Assembly (NCBI RefSeq): GCF_010233585.1
Contig: NZ_CP045997.1
Location: 7,300,914-7,364,913 of the forward strand
DNA from: Spirosoma endbachense
Lineage (GTDB): Bacteria; Bacteroidota; Bacteroidia; Cytophagales; Spirosomataceae
Direction: 5' to 3'
DNA: 64,000 nt
Below are positions 18,242 through 56,696 of the stretch, piece by piece. A program made the position numbers and the translations under genes. Each line of letters starts with the position of its first letter. Positions within the stretch are counted from its first letter, which is position 1. The notes under the pieces were generated by a model. The model worked only from the letters and a program-made list of their open reading frames with translations, searched no databases and was not told the DNA's origin.

Positions 18242-18407
18242 CTGATCAGGTTGGGAACATGCCACAAATAGTACTTAAGTATGGTTATTTGTATCATGAC
18301 TTTCGCAAAAGTCCTGTGTATATTAGCCAGTGTTTTATGTAACGTTGCGTACTTTCAACTAAAGACATCATCAGTTAGCGTTAGACTAAATCCCAACTGC
18401 CCTACGT

Positions 18408-36088: not shown

Positions 36089-37483
36089 TCACTGAGTTGG
36101 CAAACAGACGCTAAATTCGGTGTGGCCCGGTTCTGAATGCACTTTAATTGAACCGTTATGGTGTTCAACGATTCCGTTTACAATATCGAGGCCCAAACCA
36201 GTACCTTTACCTATTTCTTTGGTCGTAAAAAACGGATCGAATATTTTGTCCCGAATATCATCCGGAATGCCAGTGCCATTGTCGATGATTCGGGTTAGCA
36301 CAAATTCCCGGTCCGGCAGACTGACAATATCGATTTTACCGCCATCAGGCAAAGCGTCGATCGCGTTATCGATCAGGTTTGTCCAGACTTGATTCAGCTC
36401 ACCCGGCCACCCGCAAACGGCGGGCAGATTGTCAGGAATGGAAAGATTCAGCTCAATATGCTTGCTCTTGATTTTATGGTTCAATAGCGTAATGGTACTA
36501 CGAATGCCATCGGCAAGCATAACTTGTTCTTTGCCACCGCCCCGGTCCATGTGTGTATAATTTTTGATGGAGCCGATCAGTGTCGAAATTCGTTTTGATG
36601 CTTCGCTAATATCAGAAACCAGCTTTTCAGTCACCAAATTATTGACAATCCAGTTGGTCACACCCGCCAGATTCGTATCATCAACTTTGTCCAGAAGCCA
36701 GTCCAGATCATCGACCGTAAAGCTAAACTCCACCAGTGGCCCGGCCAGGTCCATACTGTCATCGATGCCATGATCATCCAGCCAGTCGGTCAATTCATCT
36801 TCCAGACTCGTTCGTTCGAGTAAGCTCAACTGGCGCGTTTCGCCCGCCGACTTCTGATCCATCTTTTTAAAGAATACCGTTTTCACGCAATCAACCTGAT
36901 CGTCGGTCAGGTTAAGGCTCATCACGGTTTTGAATGCTTCGGGTGTAGCCCGCAAATGCGTACTCAGCGTATCAACCGAACGCACCACCGCTGCCACAGG
37001 ATTATTTAGCTCGTGAGCCAACCCCGCCGACAGTCGTCCCAGCGACGCCAGTTTATCATTCTGCTGAGCCTGCTTCGTAAAATAACGAACGCGGCTGGTC
37101 ATTTGCTGAACCAGCGAGGCCGTCAATTCGTAACAGGTCTGTATCATTCCAAGCAGGTGATCGCGGTGAAGCCGAAGCATTCTTACCGCCGTATGGGTCA
37201 CAAATCGGCTGGGAAAGCTTTTCATCCGCGAGAACGGTAGTACGCCCAAAATGGAGTGCGGATCGTACATATACAATTCATCACCGACACCACTGGAGCC
37301 ATTATCGATACGAACGCGCCCCTCCAGCAACAGCATCAGGTGATCGGCGGGTTCGCCAGGTTTATAGAGTATTGTCTCCTGTTCGTACATAACTTCTTCG
37401 GCCCGGTCGATCAGCCATTGAAGTTGTTCATCCGGAACAGTTGTGAACTCCGGAAATTTTTTAAGGTTCTCTAAAAGGGTCAT
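36089..37483 (-). CDS. sensor histidine kinase with N-terminal cyclic nucleotide-binding domain
   Basis: It encodes 464 residues. Residues about 10-125 form a cNMP-binding/CRP-like fold (EETILYKPGEPADHLMLLLEGRVRI-type pattern, RMLRLHRDHLLGMI). A coiled linker leads to the HisKA box (LASLGRLSAGLAHELNNPVAA, phospho-His), and the HATPase domain has NLIDNAIDALPDGG, DNGTGIPDD, FFTTKEIGKGTGLGL. There is no transmembrane segment, so it senses a cytoplasmic signal. The next gene downstream begins with a receiver domain, its probable partner. Whether it binds cAMP, another nucleotide or nothing cannot be read from the sequence. Confidence 0.93.
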   Translation of the reverse strand: MTLLENLKKFPEFTTVPDEQLQWLIDRAEEVMYEQETILYKPGEPADHLMLLLEGRVRIDNGSSGVGDELYMYDPHSILGVLPFSRMKSFPSRFVTHTAVRMLRLHRDHLLGMIQTCYELTASLVQQMTSRVRYFTKQAQQNDKLASLGRLSAGLAHELNNPVAAVVRSVDTLSTHLRATPEAFKTVMSLNLTDDQVDCVKTVFFKKMDQKSAGETRQLSLLERTSLEDELTDWLDDHGIDDSMDLAGPLVEFSFTVDDLDWLLDKVDDTNLAGVTNWIVNNLVTEKLVSDISEASKRISTLIGSIKNYTHMDRGGGKEQVMLADGIRSTITLLNHKIKSKHIELNLSIPDNLPAVCGWPGELNQVWTNLIDNAIDALPDGGKIDIVSLPDREFVLTRIIDNGTGIPDDIRDKIFDPFFTTKEIGKGTGLGLDIVNGIVEHHNGSIKVHSEPGHTEFSVCLPTQ

Positions 37484-37543
37484 GAGGAAGTAAGACTGGG
37501 TGGAAAAAATTCGATTTGATCCCTGTATTTGATTGACAGACGG

Positions 37544-37571
37544 GTAACTAATTATCCGTCCTATTAGTTAC
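37544..37571. promoter_or_regulatory. 9-bp perfect inverted repeat in divergent promoter region
   Basis: GTAACTAAT (37544-37552) and ATTAGTTAC (37563-37571) are separated by 10 bp, about 60 bp upstream of the kinase gene. The half-site AACTAAT matches the arms of the BlaI-type operator at 8165-8182 but with wider spacing. It is a candidate operator; the regulator is unknown. Confidence 0.35.
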
Positions 37572-37612
37572 AGAAAGACGGTTATGCATTAGGTTTATAG
37601 GTTATTTACTGT

Positions 37613-37690
37613 AGGTCTTTGGCTGTAAAGCGTGCCACGGTTATCAGGAGCAGCATCAGTAACCGTGGCACGCTTTACAGCCAAAGACCT
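37613..37690. repeat. 31-bp perfect hairpin carrying the 48-bp repeat core (copy 1)
   Basis: Arms 37613-37643 and 37660-37690 are perfectly complementary over 31 bp with a 16-nt loop (TCAGGAGCAGCATCAG). The central 48 bp (37628-37675) recur at 41151-41198 with three differences, all in or at the loop. The outer 15 bp of each arm are unique to this locus. It lies between the divergently oriented kinase and ChaN-like genes, so it is not positioned as a terminator for either. Confidence 0.85.
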
Positions 37691-37760
37691 AAGCAGAATT
37701 GAGCAGTTAATATATTCGTTTTCTCCGACATTGAGCTTATAAAATTCGCAAATCCTGCCT

Positions 37761-38672
37761 ATGCGTATCGCCCTGCTTCTCCTTTGCCTGATTGCATTTG
37801 CTTTCCGGCCCGACAAACCTGCCTATCGACTTTACAGTCCTGAGCTGAAATCGCAAACATACGCTAAATTATTGCGTCAGGCCACCGGTGCCGACGTTGT
37901 TTTGTTTGGCGAATTGCACAATAACCCAATCTGTCACTGGCTGGAGCTTCAGCTAACCAAAGATTTACAGGTAGCTAAAAAAGGCACCCTTATTCTGGGC
38001 GCAGAAATGTTTGAGGCCGACAATCAAACGGCACTTACCGACTACGTAACAGGCCATACTACCAGCAAAGAACTAGCTGCTCAAGCCCGGCTCTGGCCCA
38101 ATTTCGATACCGATTACATGCCCATTGCCAGTTTCGCCCGAGAACAGAAGATTCCGTTCGTCGCCACGAATGTACCTCGTAAATATGCGACGCTGGTTGC
38201 CCGGAAAGGCTTAAGCGCACTGGATACCCTATCTGCAGAGGCCAAACGCCAGATGGCCCCATTACCCCTCACCGTTGACCTCACTCTGCCGGGTTATAAG
38301 GCCATGCTCGATATGATGGGGACTCATGGGGGTACTGAGACCAAAACCGACGCACATAAAGCGAACCCCGAACAGGCGGAACGCAGTCCGGCGGCCAATT
38401 TTGCCCGCGCTCAGGCCATCAAAGATGCCACGATGGCTTATTTTATTTTACAGAATCTGAAACCCGGTCAGACCCTCCTGCACTTTAACGGCGATTACCA
38501 TTCCAAGAATTTTGAAGGTATCGTTTGGTATTTACGCCAGCAACGGCCTGATATCAAGGTCGTAACGCTCTCATCCGTTGAAATGGCCGATCCTGATAAA
38601 CCTAAAGTAGAAAGCCCAAACCTGGCCAACTTCATTCTGGCGATTCCGGCCGATATGACGAAGACCTACTGA
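37761..38672 (+). CDS. ChaN-like (DUF399) exported protein
   Basis: It encodes 303 residues with an N-terminal hydrophobic signal (IALLLLCLIAFAF). The family core is ADVVLFGELHNNPICHWLELQL, LGAEMFEADNQTAL, and the C-terminal LLHFNGDYHSKNFEGIVWYL. ChaN-family proteins bind heme or iron in the periplasm. The GELHNNP and HFNGDYHS motifs carry the conserved His residues. No lipobox cysteine is evident. Its stop is only 4 bp from that of the convergent VWA gene, leaving no room for a separate terminator. Confidence 0.85.
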   Translation: MRIALLLLCLIAFAFRPDKPAYRLYSPELKSQTYAKLLRQATGADVVLFGELHNNPICHWLELQLTKDLQVAKKGTLILGAEMFEADNQTALTDYVTGHTTSKELAAQARLWPNFDTDYMPIASFAREQKIPFVATNVPRKYATLVARKGLSALDTLSAEAKRQMAPLPLTVDLTLPGYKAMLDMMGTHGGTETKTDAHKANPEQAERSPAANFARAQAIKDATMAYFILQNLKPGQTLLHFNGDYHSKNFEGIVWYLRQQRPDIKVVTLSSVEMADPDKPKVESPNLANFILAIPADMTKTY

Positions 38673-38676
38673 CCGA

Positions 38677-40182
38677 TCAGAGCGATTTAGCCTTATCAAT
38701 CAATTGAATGAACTCCTGTCGGTACCCGTAGGGATCATAGCGCATGGCGGCCGATGCCCAATTGCGAACATTGCTATAGGTGGCAGTTCCTTTATAAGCT
38801 GAGTTACGCAACAACAGGCCATAGGATGCCACAGAAGCAGCAAATCGCATGTTTTCACTCGCCATACCAAAGTCGACACTGGAATCGAAAATTTGTAAGT
38901 CAAGAGCCTCACTACTAGCTGCCGTAGGGCGTTTGTAGCGAAAATTAATGGTGAACGTTGGTGCAGAACGCAGGCTGGCCTGACCCGGAGAAATCTCTGG
39001 CAAAGCCGGTACAATTTCGTAGAGAGCCGTAATGGTCTGCCCGGCATTCACTTCTCCGGCATCTTCCCGATCGTCGGTAAAATCTTCTTTTTTCAGCAGG
39101 CGGTTTTCATAGCCGATCAGACGATACGACTTTACCTGGCTGGTGTTGAATGTCAATTGAATTTTTACATCCTTGGCGACCGTGTAAAACTTACTGAACT
39201 CGTCCACGAATACCTTCTTCGCCTGTTTTAGATTATCGATGTATTCGTAGTTACCATTTCCTTTGTTGGCAACCTGCTCCATCATGCCATCGTTAAGATT
39301 GCCAACACCAACGCCCACCACCGTCAGAAAAATACCTTTGTCACGTTTGCTGACAATTAGGTCGACCAGCTCTTTCTGACTGCTGGGGCCTACGTTGAAG
39401 TCACCGTCGGTCATCAGGATAACCCGGTTATTTCCGCCGTCAACAAAGTTTTTTTCGGCAATTTCATAGGCCGTAATAATGCCCTGTGCCCCGGCCGTAC
39501 TCCCTCCGGCGCCCAATTGGCTAATGGCCGCTTTCAGCTTACTTTTCTCCGAACCACTGGTTGCGTCAAGTGCTACACCGGCCTGTCCGGCGTAGGTAAC
39601 GATTGCTACTTTATCCTGAGCCCGAAGGTTATCGACAAACGTGGGCAATGCTTCTTTCAGCAGGGGTAATTTATTGGCATCACCCATCGAGCCAGACACA
39701 TCGACCAGCAAAACGATGTTAGAAGGGAGCAGGTTTTCTTTGGCAATCGATTGGCCTTTTACGCCAATCCGAATCAGTTTATGGGCTGCATCCCATGGGC
39801 AACTGCTTACTTCGCCATCAACCGTAATCGGGCGACCGTCCGTTGGATCGGCGTAGTTGAGCGGAAAATAATTGATCAGTTCTTCGGTCCGAATCGCATC
39901 AGCTACAGGCCTGGTATTCGTCGATAGAAATCGACGAACGTTAGCATAGGAGGCTCCATCGGCATCTATCGAAAAGGTAGACGTAGCCTCTTTGGCTACA
40001 TCGACAAAAGGATTTTCAACAATTGTGTTGTATTGCTCTGTACGTATGGGTTCACTTCCGGAAATAAAGTCTGACGAATTGGCGTACTGTGTCGCGTAGG
40101 GATACGGGCCGTTTTTCTCGTCAGCGGTTTGACAGCCTGCCAGCACGAGCAAAGCACTTAGGAACCAGGTTAGTTTTTTCAT
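38677..40182 (-). CDS. VWA-domain lipoprotein, YfbK-like
   Basis: It encodes 501 residues with a lipoprotein signal (LSALLVLAGCQTAD). A Bacteroidota-type N-terminal domain (STFSIDADGASYANVRRFL, EELINYFPLNY) precedes a von Willebrand A domain at about 155-330 with an intact MIDAS (LLVDVSGSMGDANKL, MTDGDFNVG). A DUF3520-type C-terminus follows (ASVASYGLLLRNSAYKG, QEFIQLIDKAKSL). It is surface or periplasmic with a metal-dependent protein-binding role; no partner is known. It is monocistronic and convergent with the ChaN-like gene. Confidence 0.9.
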   Translation of the reverse strand: MKKLTWFLSALLVLAGCQTADEKNGPYPYATQYANSSDFISGSEPIRTEQYNTIVENPFVDVAKEATSTFSIDADGASYANVRRFLSTNTRPVADAIRTEELINYFPLNYADPTDGRPITVDGEVSSCPWDAAHKLIRIGVKGQSIAKENLLPSNIVLLVDVSGSMGDANKLPLLKEALPTFVDNLRAQDKVAIVTYAGQAGVALDATSGSEKSKLKAAISQLGAGGSTAGAQGIITAYEIAEKNFVDGGNNRVILMTDGDFNVGPSSQKELVDLIVSKRDKGIFLTVVGVGVGNLNDGMMEQVANKGNGNYEYIDNLKQAKKVFVDEFSKFYTVAKDVKIQLTFNTSQVKSYRLIGYENRLLKKEDFTDDREDAGEVNAGQTITALYEIVPALPEISPGQASLRSAPTFTINFRYKRPTAASSEALDLQIFDSSVDFGMASENMRFAASVASYGLLLRNSAYKGTATYSNVRNWASAAMRYDPYGYRQEFIQLIDKAKSL

Positions 40183-40353
40183 GATTATCAGGAATTTGGT
40201 CTGGAATTCAGGCTAGTGATTCCTTTGTTTACTCAATGGTTGGAACCAGCGTAGGTGCATTTCATTGAATAAAGTTTTCAGGCCTTTTGCCACCAATTGC
40301 AGTTACATTAATTGGTGGCGTTTTCTTCTTCGCACCAGAAACCCCAACAGAAC

Positions 40354-41118
40354 ATGCTAAAAAACTTACTCAACTTATCAGGGAAGAATGCGCTCGTGAC
40401 AGGATCAAGCCAGGGTATAGGTCAGGGAATTGCACTAGGTCTTGCTGAATTTGGCGCCAATGTGCTGGTTCATTACCGCAGCGATGCCGATGAAGCCAAG
40501 AGCGTATCGGAAGCTATTGCTAAATTTGGCGTAAAAACCAGCGCAATAGGTGTCGATCTGGCAAGCGATAACGCAGCCGACGATTTATTTGACCAAGCCA
40601 CGAAGCAGTTCGGCTCTATCGATATTTTGGTATTGAATGCATCCGTTCAGAAACCCAAACAATGGGCCGAAACCACCCCTCAGGAATTCGAGGAGCAGGT
40701 GATGGCCAACTGGAAATCGACATTATTTATCATGCAAAAGTTTTTGCCCGGCATGACTGAGCGCGGCTGGGGACGAATTCTTACACTGGGTAGTGTTCAG
40801 GAACTGAAGCCGCACCCCGCTATGGTTGTTTATGCCGGTACGAAAGCTGCGGTGGCGAATACGGTTCGCAATCTGGCCATTCAGGTAGCCGATCAGGGCG
40901 TTACAATCAATAATCTCTCCCCTGGTATTATCGACACGCCACGCACCGATGAACCGACCCCGCCTATACCTGATCGCATTAGCCAGCGCATGAGCGTTCC
41001 GGTTGGCTACGACGGTCAGCCAGAAGATATTGCCGGAATGGCTGTCCTTCTCTGTTCCGATGCCGGACGTTATGTGACGGGGCAAACAATTTTCGTGGAT
41101 GGAGGAATGAGTTTGTGA
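40354..41118 (+). CDS. short-chain dehydrogenase/reductase
   Basis: From ATG 40354 it encodes 254 residues. It has the classical SDR features TGSSQGIGQGIALGL (NAD(P) binding), the NAS motif in LVLNASVQKPK, Ser in TLGSVQEL, YAGTKAAV (YxxxK) and the C-terminal YVTGQTIFVDGGMSL. FabG-like proteins of this type reduce 3-oxoacyl or sugar substrates, and specificity cannot be assigned. A GTG start at 40312 adds 14 non-conserved residues and is rejected. It is followed 10 bp later by a 92-bp hairpin element. Confidence 0.92.
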   Translation: MLKNLLNLSGKNALVTGSSQGIGQGIALGLAEFGANVLVHYRSDADEAKSVSEAIAKFGVKTSAIGVDLASDNAADDLFDQATKQFGSIDILVLNASVQKPKQWAETTPQEFEEQVMANWKSTLFIMQKFLPGMTERGWGRILTLGSVQELKPHPAMVVYAGTKAAVANTVRNLAIQVADQGVTINNLSPGIIDTPRTDEPTPPIPDRISQRMSVPVGYDGQPEDIAGMAVLLCSDAGRYVTGQTIFVDGGMSL

Positions 41119-41128
41119 GGATTAGAGC

Positions 41129-41220
41129 TTCGCGCAGAGGTGTCGTTCAGAAGCGTGCCACGGTTATTAGGAGCAGCATTAGAAACCGTGGCACGCTTCT
41201 GAACGACACCTCTGCGCGAA
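41129..41220. repeat. 37-bp perfect hairpin carrying the 48-bp repeat core (copy 2)
   Basis: Arms 41129-41165 and 41184-41220 are perfectly complementary over 37 bp with an 18-nt loop. The core 41151-41198 matches 37628-37675 at 45 of 48 positions. The outer 22 bp of each arm are unrelated to copy 1. It lies between convergent genes, where it could also act as a bidirectional terminator. Confidence 0.85.
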
Positions 41221-41230
41221 AGTTACGGAT

Positions 41231-42298
41231 CTAATTATCCACCAAATCAACGTATTCTGCGACGAGCGCCCAGCAGTGAGCCTCGCACTGCCAGCGCATT
41301 TGCATAAGCGGCCGATCAGCGAACCGGCGCAACCAGGGCTGTTCGTAAGCGGTAAGCAAACCGGCAATGAAGAAATTGAAGGTGTCGAAGTCCCGTTCAA
41401 TATGGTTCGTATCGATGGTAGGCAACACCTCCCCTAATCGCCTGAGCGACGTTGCCAGTATAATTTGTTCAAGACGATTGCCGGTTTTGCTCAACTCCCG
41501 ATGCGCATCGGCAATAAGCCGCGAACGAACGGATTCCAGTTCAGGTATCGTAAAAGCCGCCATCAATCGGGCCAGATGGTAAATAATCAGGGAGGTGCGG
41601 GCATAATGCGGAGCGCACCGAAATGGCTCGGCCACATACCGGCCTGACTCGACTACTGAGCGCAGATAAACCAGCGAATCGGCATCGTGCTGATTGCGGG
41701 GCAAGTTATACTGGTAGATGCAGAACAGGACATTGCTTAAGGCACAGGCATCAAAATCGACACCCATATTTTTCCCGAACCAGGTGGAGTACGCACGCAG
41801 ATTTCGGTACTCGGGATAGGTATTTTTGATTTGATGCCGTTGGCTCCCGTTGGCATGCCGGGCTAGTTTCGCTTTAAGCCAGTTCAATGTATCGGTGGAG
41901 GGCGGTTCAGCGATCTGGGTCAGGTAGACCATGGCCGTATCGTCAATATCGTCGGGAATGCGAAAATGCTCGAAATGACGAAACAGATAACCATTGGGAA
42001 AGTGTCGGGATGGCCGCGTTGGCCAGAAATTATAAGTATCCAGCCCATCTTTGTTCTGAAAAATGGGGAAGGCAGTCCGCGCCTGTTCCGAAATCTGGCG
42101 GATCAGATGCTGCGTATGGGGCGAAACAGCCGAACGCAACGACTGTACTGTAAAAACCGTAATGGCCGTAAAAAAGATATTGGTATCGGAACGTCGATAA
42201 AAAATGGCCGGATTACTGCGAAATGAAGGGAACAAACCGGTTTCGTCCTGCAAATCAGCAATCTTCTCTATAAGATAATCCGTAGTCAACGTTGCCAT
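41231..42298 (-). CDS. uncharacterised protein with DxDDTA motif (possible alpha/alpha-toroid)
   Basis: Starting at ATG 42298 it encodes 355 residues. I recognise no named family. It is helix-rich, and RIPDDIDDTAMVYL (D117-I-D119-D120-T-A) matches the DxDDTA motif where class II terpene cyclases and squalene-hopene cyclases protonate their substrate. Other features are DTNIFFTAITVFTVQSLR, DTYNFWPTRPSRHFPNGYLF and ALSNVLFCIYQYNL. Length is about half that of a squalene cyclase and I see no QW repeats. No signal peptide. It could be a distant prenyl-cyclase-fold protein or the motif could be chance. Confidence 0.7.
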   Translation of the reverse strand: MATLTTDYLIEKIADLQDETGLFPSFRSNPAIFYRRSDTNIFFTAITVFTVQSLRSAVSPHTQHLIRQISEQARTAFPIFQNKDGLDTYNFWPTRPSRHFPNGYLFRHFEHFRIPDDIDDTAMVYLTQIAEPPSTDTLNWLKAKLARHANGSQRHQIKNTYPEYRNLRAYSTWFGKNMGVDFDACALSNVLFCIYQYNLPRNQHDADSLVYLRSVVESGRYVAEPFRCAPHYARTSLIIYHLARLMAAFTIPELESVRSRLIADAHRELSKTGNRLEQIILATSLRRLGEVLPTIDTNHIERDFDTFNFFIAGLLTAYEQPWLRRFADRPLMQMRWQCEAHCWALVAEYVDLVDN

Positions 42299-42886: not shown

Positions 42887-42942
42887 TCGCTTTCGCGCAT
42901 ATACCACCTTTTAAAACAAAGGTGGTATATGCGCGAAAGCGA
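42887..42942. repeat. 25-bp perfect hairpin
   Basis: Arms 42887-42911 and 42918-42942 are perfectly complementary, with a 6-nt loop (TAAAAC). It lies more than 250 bp from the nearest supported gene, so it is not clearly a terminator. The arm contains TTTCGCGCA, also seen as TTCGCGCA in the outer arm of 41129-41220. Confidence 0.8.
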
Positions 42943-56632: not shown

Positions 56633-56696
56633 TTTACAATAAGTGGTAAGTGGTGTCGGGTTTGAGAACCCGACACCACTTACCACTTATTGTAAA
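56633..56696. terminator. 30-bp perfect hairpin between convergent genes
   Basis: Arms 56633-56662 and 56667-56696 are perfectly complementary with a 4-nt loop (TGAG). It fills almost the whole 73-bp gap between two convergent stop codons, so bidirectional termination is likely. Arm length far exceeds what termination needs. Confidence 0.8.

Follow-up and report, generated by a model that had tools for sequence, protein, structure and literature searches.

A miniature, transposon-like palindrome family in Spirosoma whose arms appear to be re-templated from each other

Miniature inverted-repeat transposable elements (MITEs) of bacteria are short, non-coding and multicopy, carry terminal inverted repeats, are flanked by target duplications and lie mostly between genes (PMC10969869). 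Template switching between inverted repeats has arm homogenization and spacer inversion as its hallmarks (PMC8604942), and in RNA hairpins a single template-switch event can create or repair a perfect stem by reverse-complement copying (PMC8794818). The REP/GTAG and CGTC palindromes, of 20-40 bp, are small, multicopy and located outside genes (PMC3733652). The element considered here is a palindrome of about 80 bp, two copies of which lie in a 64,000-nucleotide stretch of the Spirosoma endbachense genome (contig NZ_CP045997.1, positions 7,300,914 to 7,364,913; hereafter the window). All of the MITE traits listed above are also found in this element, which differs from the MITEs so described in being nearly all inverted repeat, in having arms that co-evolve in place, and in that no parent insertion sequence (IS) was found for it. 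Like the template-switched short inverted repeats of the second source it shows arm homogenization and spacer inversion, but here both appear in a mobile family dispersed in many parallel copies, along with mirrored insertions or deletions (indels) and inverted copies of flanking gene ends. Its perfect stems fit the reverse-complement copying described for RNA hairpins, whereas the present case concerns mobile DNA, for which no RNA role is shown, rather than RNA genes. With the REP/GTAG and CGTC palindromes it shares small size, multiple copies and a location outside genes; unlike them it is about 80 bp long, makes 5-bp duplications, and has no Y1 transposase match in the two genomes richest in copies.

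We favor, with a probability of roughly 0.78, the reading that this is a MITE-like mobile element whose arms re-template each other in place via a hairpin or cruciform. Both the MITE kind and template switching are known; what is new is the family itself, and the combination of the two at many replicate loci with counterparts in a sister species. Among the open-licence papers listed on Spirosoma or Bacteroidetes MITEs, palindromic repeats, REPs or the letters of the core, none describes the family in its title or the opening of its abstract. Evidence for template switching at inverted repeats mostly consists of isolated events found here and there; dozens of related hairpins in one genome, some with sister-species counterparts, amount to a natural replicate experiment from which the rates of arm repair, spacer flipping and palindrome growth could be learned for bacteria. 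A related form of template switching between short inverted repeats is, reportedly, the quasipalindrome mutagenesis of E. coli. The family also carries a caution, in that covariation among hairpins can come from a DNA-level process without RNA function.

The two copies in the window are as follows.
37612..37691, no strand assigned: copy 1 of the palindromic element, with left arm 37612-37643, spacer 37644-37659 and right arm 37660-37691.
41129..41220, no strand assigned: copy 2, with left arm 41129-41165, spacer 41166-41183 and right arm 41184-41220.

Copy 1 is a perfect hairpin with 32-bp arms and a 16-nt loop (31 + 18 + 31 in the canonical description), and copy 2 has perfect 37-bp arms around an 18-nt loop. 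An earlier note on this DNA had reported a 48-bp core common to both hairpins, perfectly inverted arms at each site, and a position between divergent genes for one copy and convergent genes for the other. The core is indeed identical at 45 of 48 positions (94%), with the three differences in or beside the loop as claimed, the arms are perfect at both sites, and open reading frames (ORFs) place copy 1 between divergent genes at 37.6 kb and copy 2 between convergent genes at 41.1 kb. The outer arms, which had been called unrelated, are not: both hairpins carry versions of one family arm. Many copies carry the family arm TAGGACTTTCGCT..GAG, of which the copy 1 arm, TAGGTCTTTGGCTGTAAAG, is one version, and the copy 2 arm reads as that same family arm after a mirrored insertion inside it and loss of the tip. 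The tips of copy 1 are TAGG...CCTA, and an intact target duplication is no longer present around them. Model R1, which has copy 1 itself among its sequences, matches copy 1 at E=2e-21, and a match to the same model spans copy 2 at 41135-41214.

In what follows, G000 is the window's own 10.3-Mb genome, G004 that of a sister species and G003 another genome of the genus. One half of the family element reads TAGGACTTTCGC, then variable sequence, then GCCGTGCCACGGTT, and a spacer of 18 nt separates it from its mirror image; the arm consensus of the copies is TAGGACTTTCGCT..GAGCCGTGCCACGGTT with a variable middle stretch, from an alignment built on 41 of 81 copies with canonical spacing. A whole-genome search for the core, as the earlier note had proposed, used the pattern GTGCCACGGTT-N(10-40)-AACCGTGGCAC and found 74 exact-core copies in G000, against 0 matches for a reversed control pattern; the recurrence is far above chance. 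The exact core is present in 9 of 36 genus genomes (74 in G000, 46 in G004, 18 in G003 and 1-9 in each of six more), and a covariance model of the element has matches in 14 of 121 genomes of the bacterial family, with per-genome counts that are lower bounds because 38 candidates were scored per genome. The stretches examined, reaching about 2 kb either side of the copies, were 67 from G000, 45 from G004 and 8 from G003; copies up to 6.4 Mb came from the positions of pattern matches and those beyond from BLAST matches and later further searches. Together with the window they yield a list of 117 core hairpins (G000 63, G004 45, G003 9), and in 85 of these the arms, as far as reported, pair without mismatch.

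That the element inserted as mobile DNA is indicated by its ends. Among 67 elements chosen for matching outer 12 bases, 38 are exactly 80 bp long (range 57-112), and 5-bp direct repeats stand immediately outside the tips, exact in 17 and with one mismatch in 24; exact repeats of other lengths number one at 4 bp and three at 6 bp. A separate tip scan recognised both tips in 61 of the 117 hairpin rows. The comparison with a relative that the earlier note had asked for was made at 12 G000 loci, which were looked up in G004 by their flanks: eight gave one contiguous match over the joined flanks and four an occupied gap, and 4 of the 12 (L092, L072, L077 and L081) proved to be clean empty sites with a single target copy. 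L078 retains a remnant tip in G004 and is therefore not empty, and L084, L098 and L068 were not counted as empty sites. Since it has both target duplications of fixed length (5 bp) and empty sites in a relative, the element is MITE-like, and it shows the further features of that class in being short and non-coding, with terminal inverted repeats. At one further locus, L073 (G000 803604), about 31 kb separate the two flanks in G004, and therefore a large insertion or deletion has its junction at or near the palindrome.

As to the mobiliser, a REP/RAYT element, in which the hairpin would be moved by a Y1 (TnpA-REP) transposase, would suit a short, multicopy, mostly intergenic palindrome, and matches to this transposase (PF01797) occur in 29 of 36 genus genomes, among them the other carriers G003 (9), G007 (10) and G009 (7). 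There are, however, 0 matches in G000 and G004, where exact cores are most numerous, and the assignment was rejected on that account as scarcely credible; to our knowledge, Y1 transposition is also not expected to give 5-bp duplications. A Tn3-derived miniature element (TIME) was likewise rejected: the Tn3-type transposase PF01526, found in 19 of 36 genus genomes, has no match in G000, G004 or G003. No autonomous transposon was found at the unpaired tips examined, most IS families not having been searched, and the unpaired-tip search yielded instead further family variants with modular GC-rich centres, plus solo ends. Plasmid and phage records searched with one copy of the element gave no match.

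The arms of the element change together. Of the 1271 cells in the 41 canonical copies, 98.6% are paired; measured against the commonest pair, 136 cells depart from it on both sides and 8 on one side (leaving G-U), and 18 are unpaired. Comparison of orthologous copies points the same way. In 11 G000/G004 pairs with intact cores (L123/L175 being left out), with columns counted only to the end of pairing, 18 columns are mirrored and 6 differ in one arm, against 0.48 mirrored columns expected if the arms were independent; the same pairs hold one mirrored 5-nt indel and two 1-nt one-arm indels. Copy 2 provides an example within the window, because its G004 counterpart, which occupies the same site and retains more of the right tip, has arms that differ from those of copy 2 by one mirrored base. 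For copy 1 (37612), the corresponding G004 sequence has diverged too far to be classed as either empty or decayed. On a broader base, all 31 columns of 51 canonical copies, out of 113, show 167 mirrored and 91 one-arm deviations from the consensus, together with 30 cases in which both arms are off consensus and unlike each other; 53 of the 91 one-arm deviations fall in two columns outside the tip. The ungapped outer 22 columns, which include host bases past the tip, are without mismatch in 21 of 113 copies. Arm homogenization, as reported for template-switched repeats, is thus found in this family.

Strong covariation in the 41 canonical copies is also what would be seen if the hairpin worked as RNA, be it as a 3′-end stabiliser, a terminator or an RNase III site, with selection on the stem giving compensatory mutations and with mobility only incidental. 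The copies do lie near gene ends, at a median of 33 bp from the facing stop codon (108 measured sides, 70 of them within 50 bp). However, G-U intermediates are almost absent, at 8 one-side against 136 both-side cells, and point compensation would not yield mirrored multi-base indels, inversion of an 18-nt spacer or a copied gene end (see below), so that compensation at the RNA level accounts for the mirrored changes only. The gene contexts, moreover, resemble those of background gaps. With 116 of the 117 hairpin rows placed by a simple ORF caller rather than by annotation, 15 of the 116 fall inside an ORF and the 101 intergenic rows divide into 64 tandem, 22 convergent and 15 divergent, compared with 167, 52 and 54 among 273 gaps of at least 80 bp in the same loci. 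A terminator role as sole explanation was rejected because the contexts are mixed across the family, as the earlier note had argued from the two copies. A known RNA family was rejected as well: Rfam returned only microRNA-hairpin matches on window positions 37400-41400, all below the gathering score. We regard an RNA function as an unlikely cause of the paired changes.

Spacer inversion, the other hallmark of template-switched repeats, is also found. When 15 spacer pairs were tested against shuffles, four were inverted (L075, L094, L114 and L133), nine direct, and two received neither call; at L114, 18 of 18 bases match once the spacer is inverted. The 15 spacer pairs differ from the 15 pairs used for arm counts (the 11 above and four located by flanks) in that L125a, with a 3-nt loop, is out and L123 is in. 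The four inverted spacers, together with the conserved inner arm, could alternatively indicate a phase switch, in which a site-specific invertase acting on the conserved GTGCCACGGTT arms would turn the spacer over. Such an enzyme would leave the mirrored arm changes and indels unexplained, and the conservation of the inner arm is partly an artefact, because the search pattern required it; we consider this highly improbable.

The earlier note had proposed that template switching at the core hairpin copies the local flank into the arm and so extends the palindrome. This stands only for two loci outside the window. Past the tip, the perfect inverted repeat continues for 7-9 bp in 3 of the 67 tip-defined elements (L071, L246 and L181), where 0.08 of 67 would be expected by chance to reach even 5 bp. 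In the first hairpin of L106, the 3′ end of a gene (...RGYDYYVGL*), which G004 has as well, forms the right outer arm, and a 14-bp inverted copy of that gene end forms the left one; since the right side is coding, copying went from right to left. At L115, a gene (...EKLTLQ*) terminates with the left flank CAATAAC in G000 and G004 alike, and the right-hand inverted copy of this flank occurs only in G000. Flank copying is thus seen at L106 and L115 and is not general: the hairpins end in element tips, many of which are flanked by 5-bp target duplications, and some of the corresponding G004 sites are empty. Nor are the outer arms generally locus-specific, because other core copies share them, an outcome that the earlier note had itself named as counting against its proposal. 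Its other suggestion, insertion into a pre-existing palindrome, may apply at L246: the palindrome of G004 at this site is a different one, yet its outer arm is almost that of G000. Template switching itself is retained, as a process that remodels a mobile element: perfect arms kept through change, mirrored indels, and the footprints of arm-to-arm copying and spacer inversion in orthologs all speak for it.

Taken jointly, the mirrored changes, mirrored indels, inverted spacers and copied flank match published template switching, as far as can be judged from the footprints. The following course of events may be proposed. A non-autonomous element of about 80 bp, presumably moved by a transposase, inserted and produced 5-bp target duplications, as the repeats around the tips show. 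Because nearly all of it is a closely spaced inverted repeat, it would fold to a hairpin or cruciform at replication, and in the folded copy one arm may template the other. The footprints themselves are observed: arm changes and small indels at mirror positions, an inverted spacer at some sites and, at two loci, a palindrome that runs past the tip into an inverted copy of the adjoining gene end. Other copies gather one-sided changes and decay or collapse, as individual examples show, and damage to the core presumably halts arm repair.

Several observations weigh against this reading. The template-switching mechanism is inferred from sequence footprints; with no mobilising transposase found, the label MITE depends on the tips, the target duplications, the number of copies and the empty sites, and an empty site in G004 could also be due to excision. 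In the four pairs located by their flanks (L102, L113, L115 and the first L106 hairpin being left out as remnants or not simply alignable), one-arm columns outnumber mirrored ones by 17 to 7 (0.65 mirrored expected). This set is less biased to intact cores, and arm repair is therefore far from complete. The 15 pairs together give 25 mirrored and 23 one-arm columns, where independent arms predict about one mirrored; the mirrored columns come mostly from intact copies and the one-arm columns mostly from decaying ones. In addition, L123/L175 has a 16-nt insertion in a single arm, L113 and L102 differ asymmetrically, and one-arm events at the ends lie outside the tally, for example a 10-nt deletion at L125/L167 and the erosion of the end at L106/L146. 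Sixteen of the 120 loci L068-L187 lack a listed core hairpin; one of them, L135, is no copy site, and among the rest are imperfect or variant copies. Among the extensions, those at L071 and L246 are undated, the G004 outer arms there being nearly identical, and deletion of the left side of L106 in G004 leaves that copying event undated too.

Finally, the spacers of L108/L147 look unrelated in spite of the shared site, which suggests replacement from another copy. More generally, the whole palindrome at a locus could be overwritten, in either orientation, by another family copy through recombination, and the recurrence of spacer types among copies would agree with this. Yet copy 2/L178, L125a/L167 and L133/L141 have arms or spacers absent from the other listed copies, and their counted arm columns differ by mirrored bases only, so that change in place is probable for these three; a copied gene end, in turn, has no possible source in another copy. 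Overwriting is thus rather improbable as the general explanation. It is also conceivable, if doubtful, that the element spreads via a folded hairpin intermediate in which arm templates arm, as a self-renewing foldback element distinct from ordinary MITEs; perfect palindromy, spacer flips, mirrored indels and gene-end capture would then be by-products of its life cycle.

Beyond the genus, exact-core matches occur, among named genomes, in Niastella, a Persicitalea metagenome-assembled genome (MAG) and a Cytophagaceae MAG. The Niastella loci (L199, L201-L204 and L222) carry short forms of the core, with arms of 14-20 bp in five of six and no arm reaching 14 bp in the sixth, and some of these short forms have spacers resembling Spirosoma ones. 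Niastella belongs to a different class of Bacteroidota from Spirosoma, and the sharing of the core may be due either to shared descent or to transfer.

The window also holds the collapsed remnant of a third copy, which model R1 misses and at which G004 (L177) has an 80-bp element.
18295..18316, no strand assigned: remnant of the third copy, both tips kept and the centre deleted.
18290..18294, no strand assigned: 5-bp target duplication TGTAT, left of the remnant.
18317..18321, no strand assigned: 5-bp target duplication TGTAT, right of the remnant.

Two other perfect hairpins with short loops and without the family core lie in the window, at 42887-42942 (25-bp arms) and 56633-56696 (30-bp arms), and their exact cores did not recur among 248 loci examined. 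Lastly, L235, L236, L240, L243, L244, L104, L177 and L087 have the same tips as the family around modular GC-rich centres (e.g. CCGCAGCCGCGGACGG and CGGCGGACCGTGG). The modules are apparently shuffled and inverted among these variants, which are possibly internal template-switch rearrangements.

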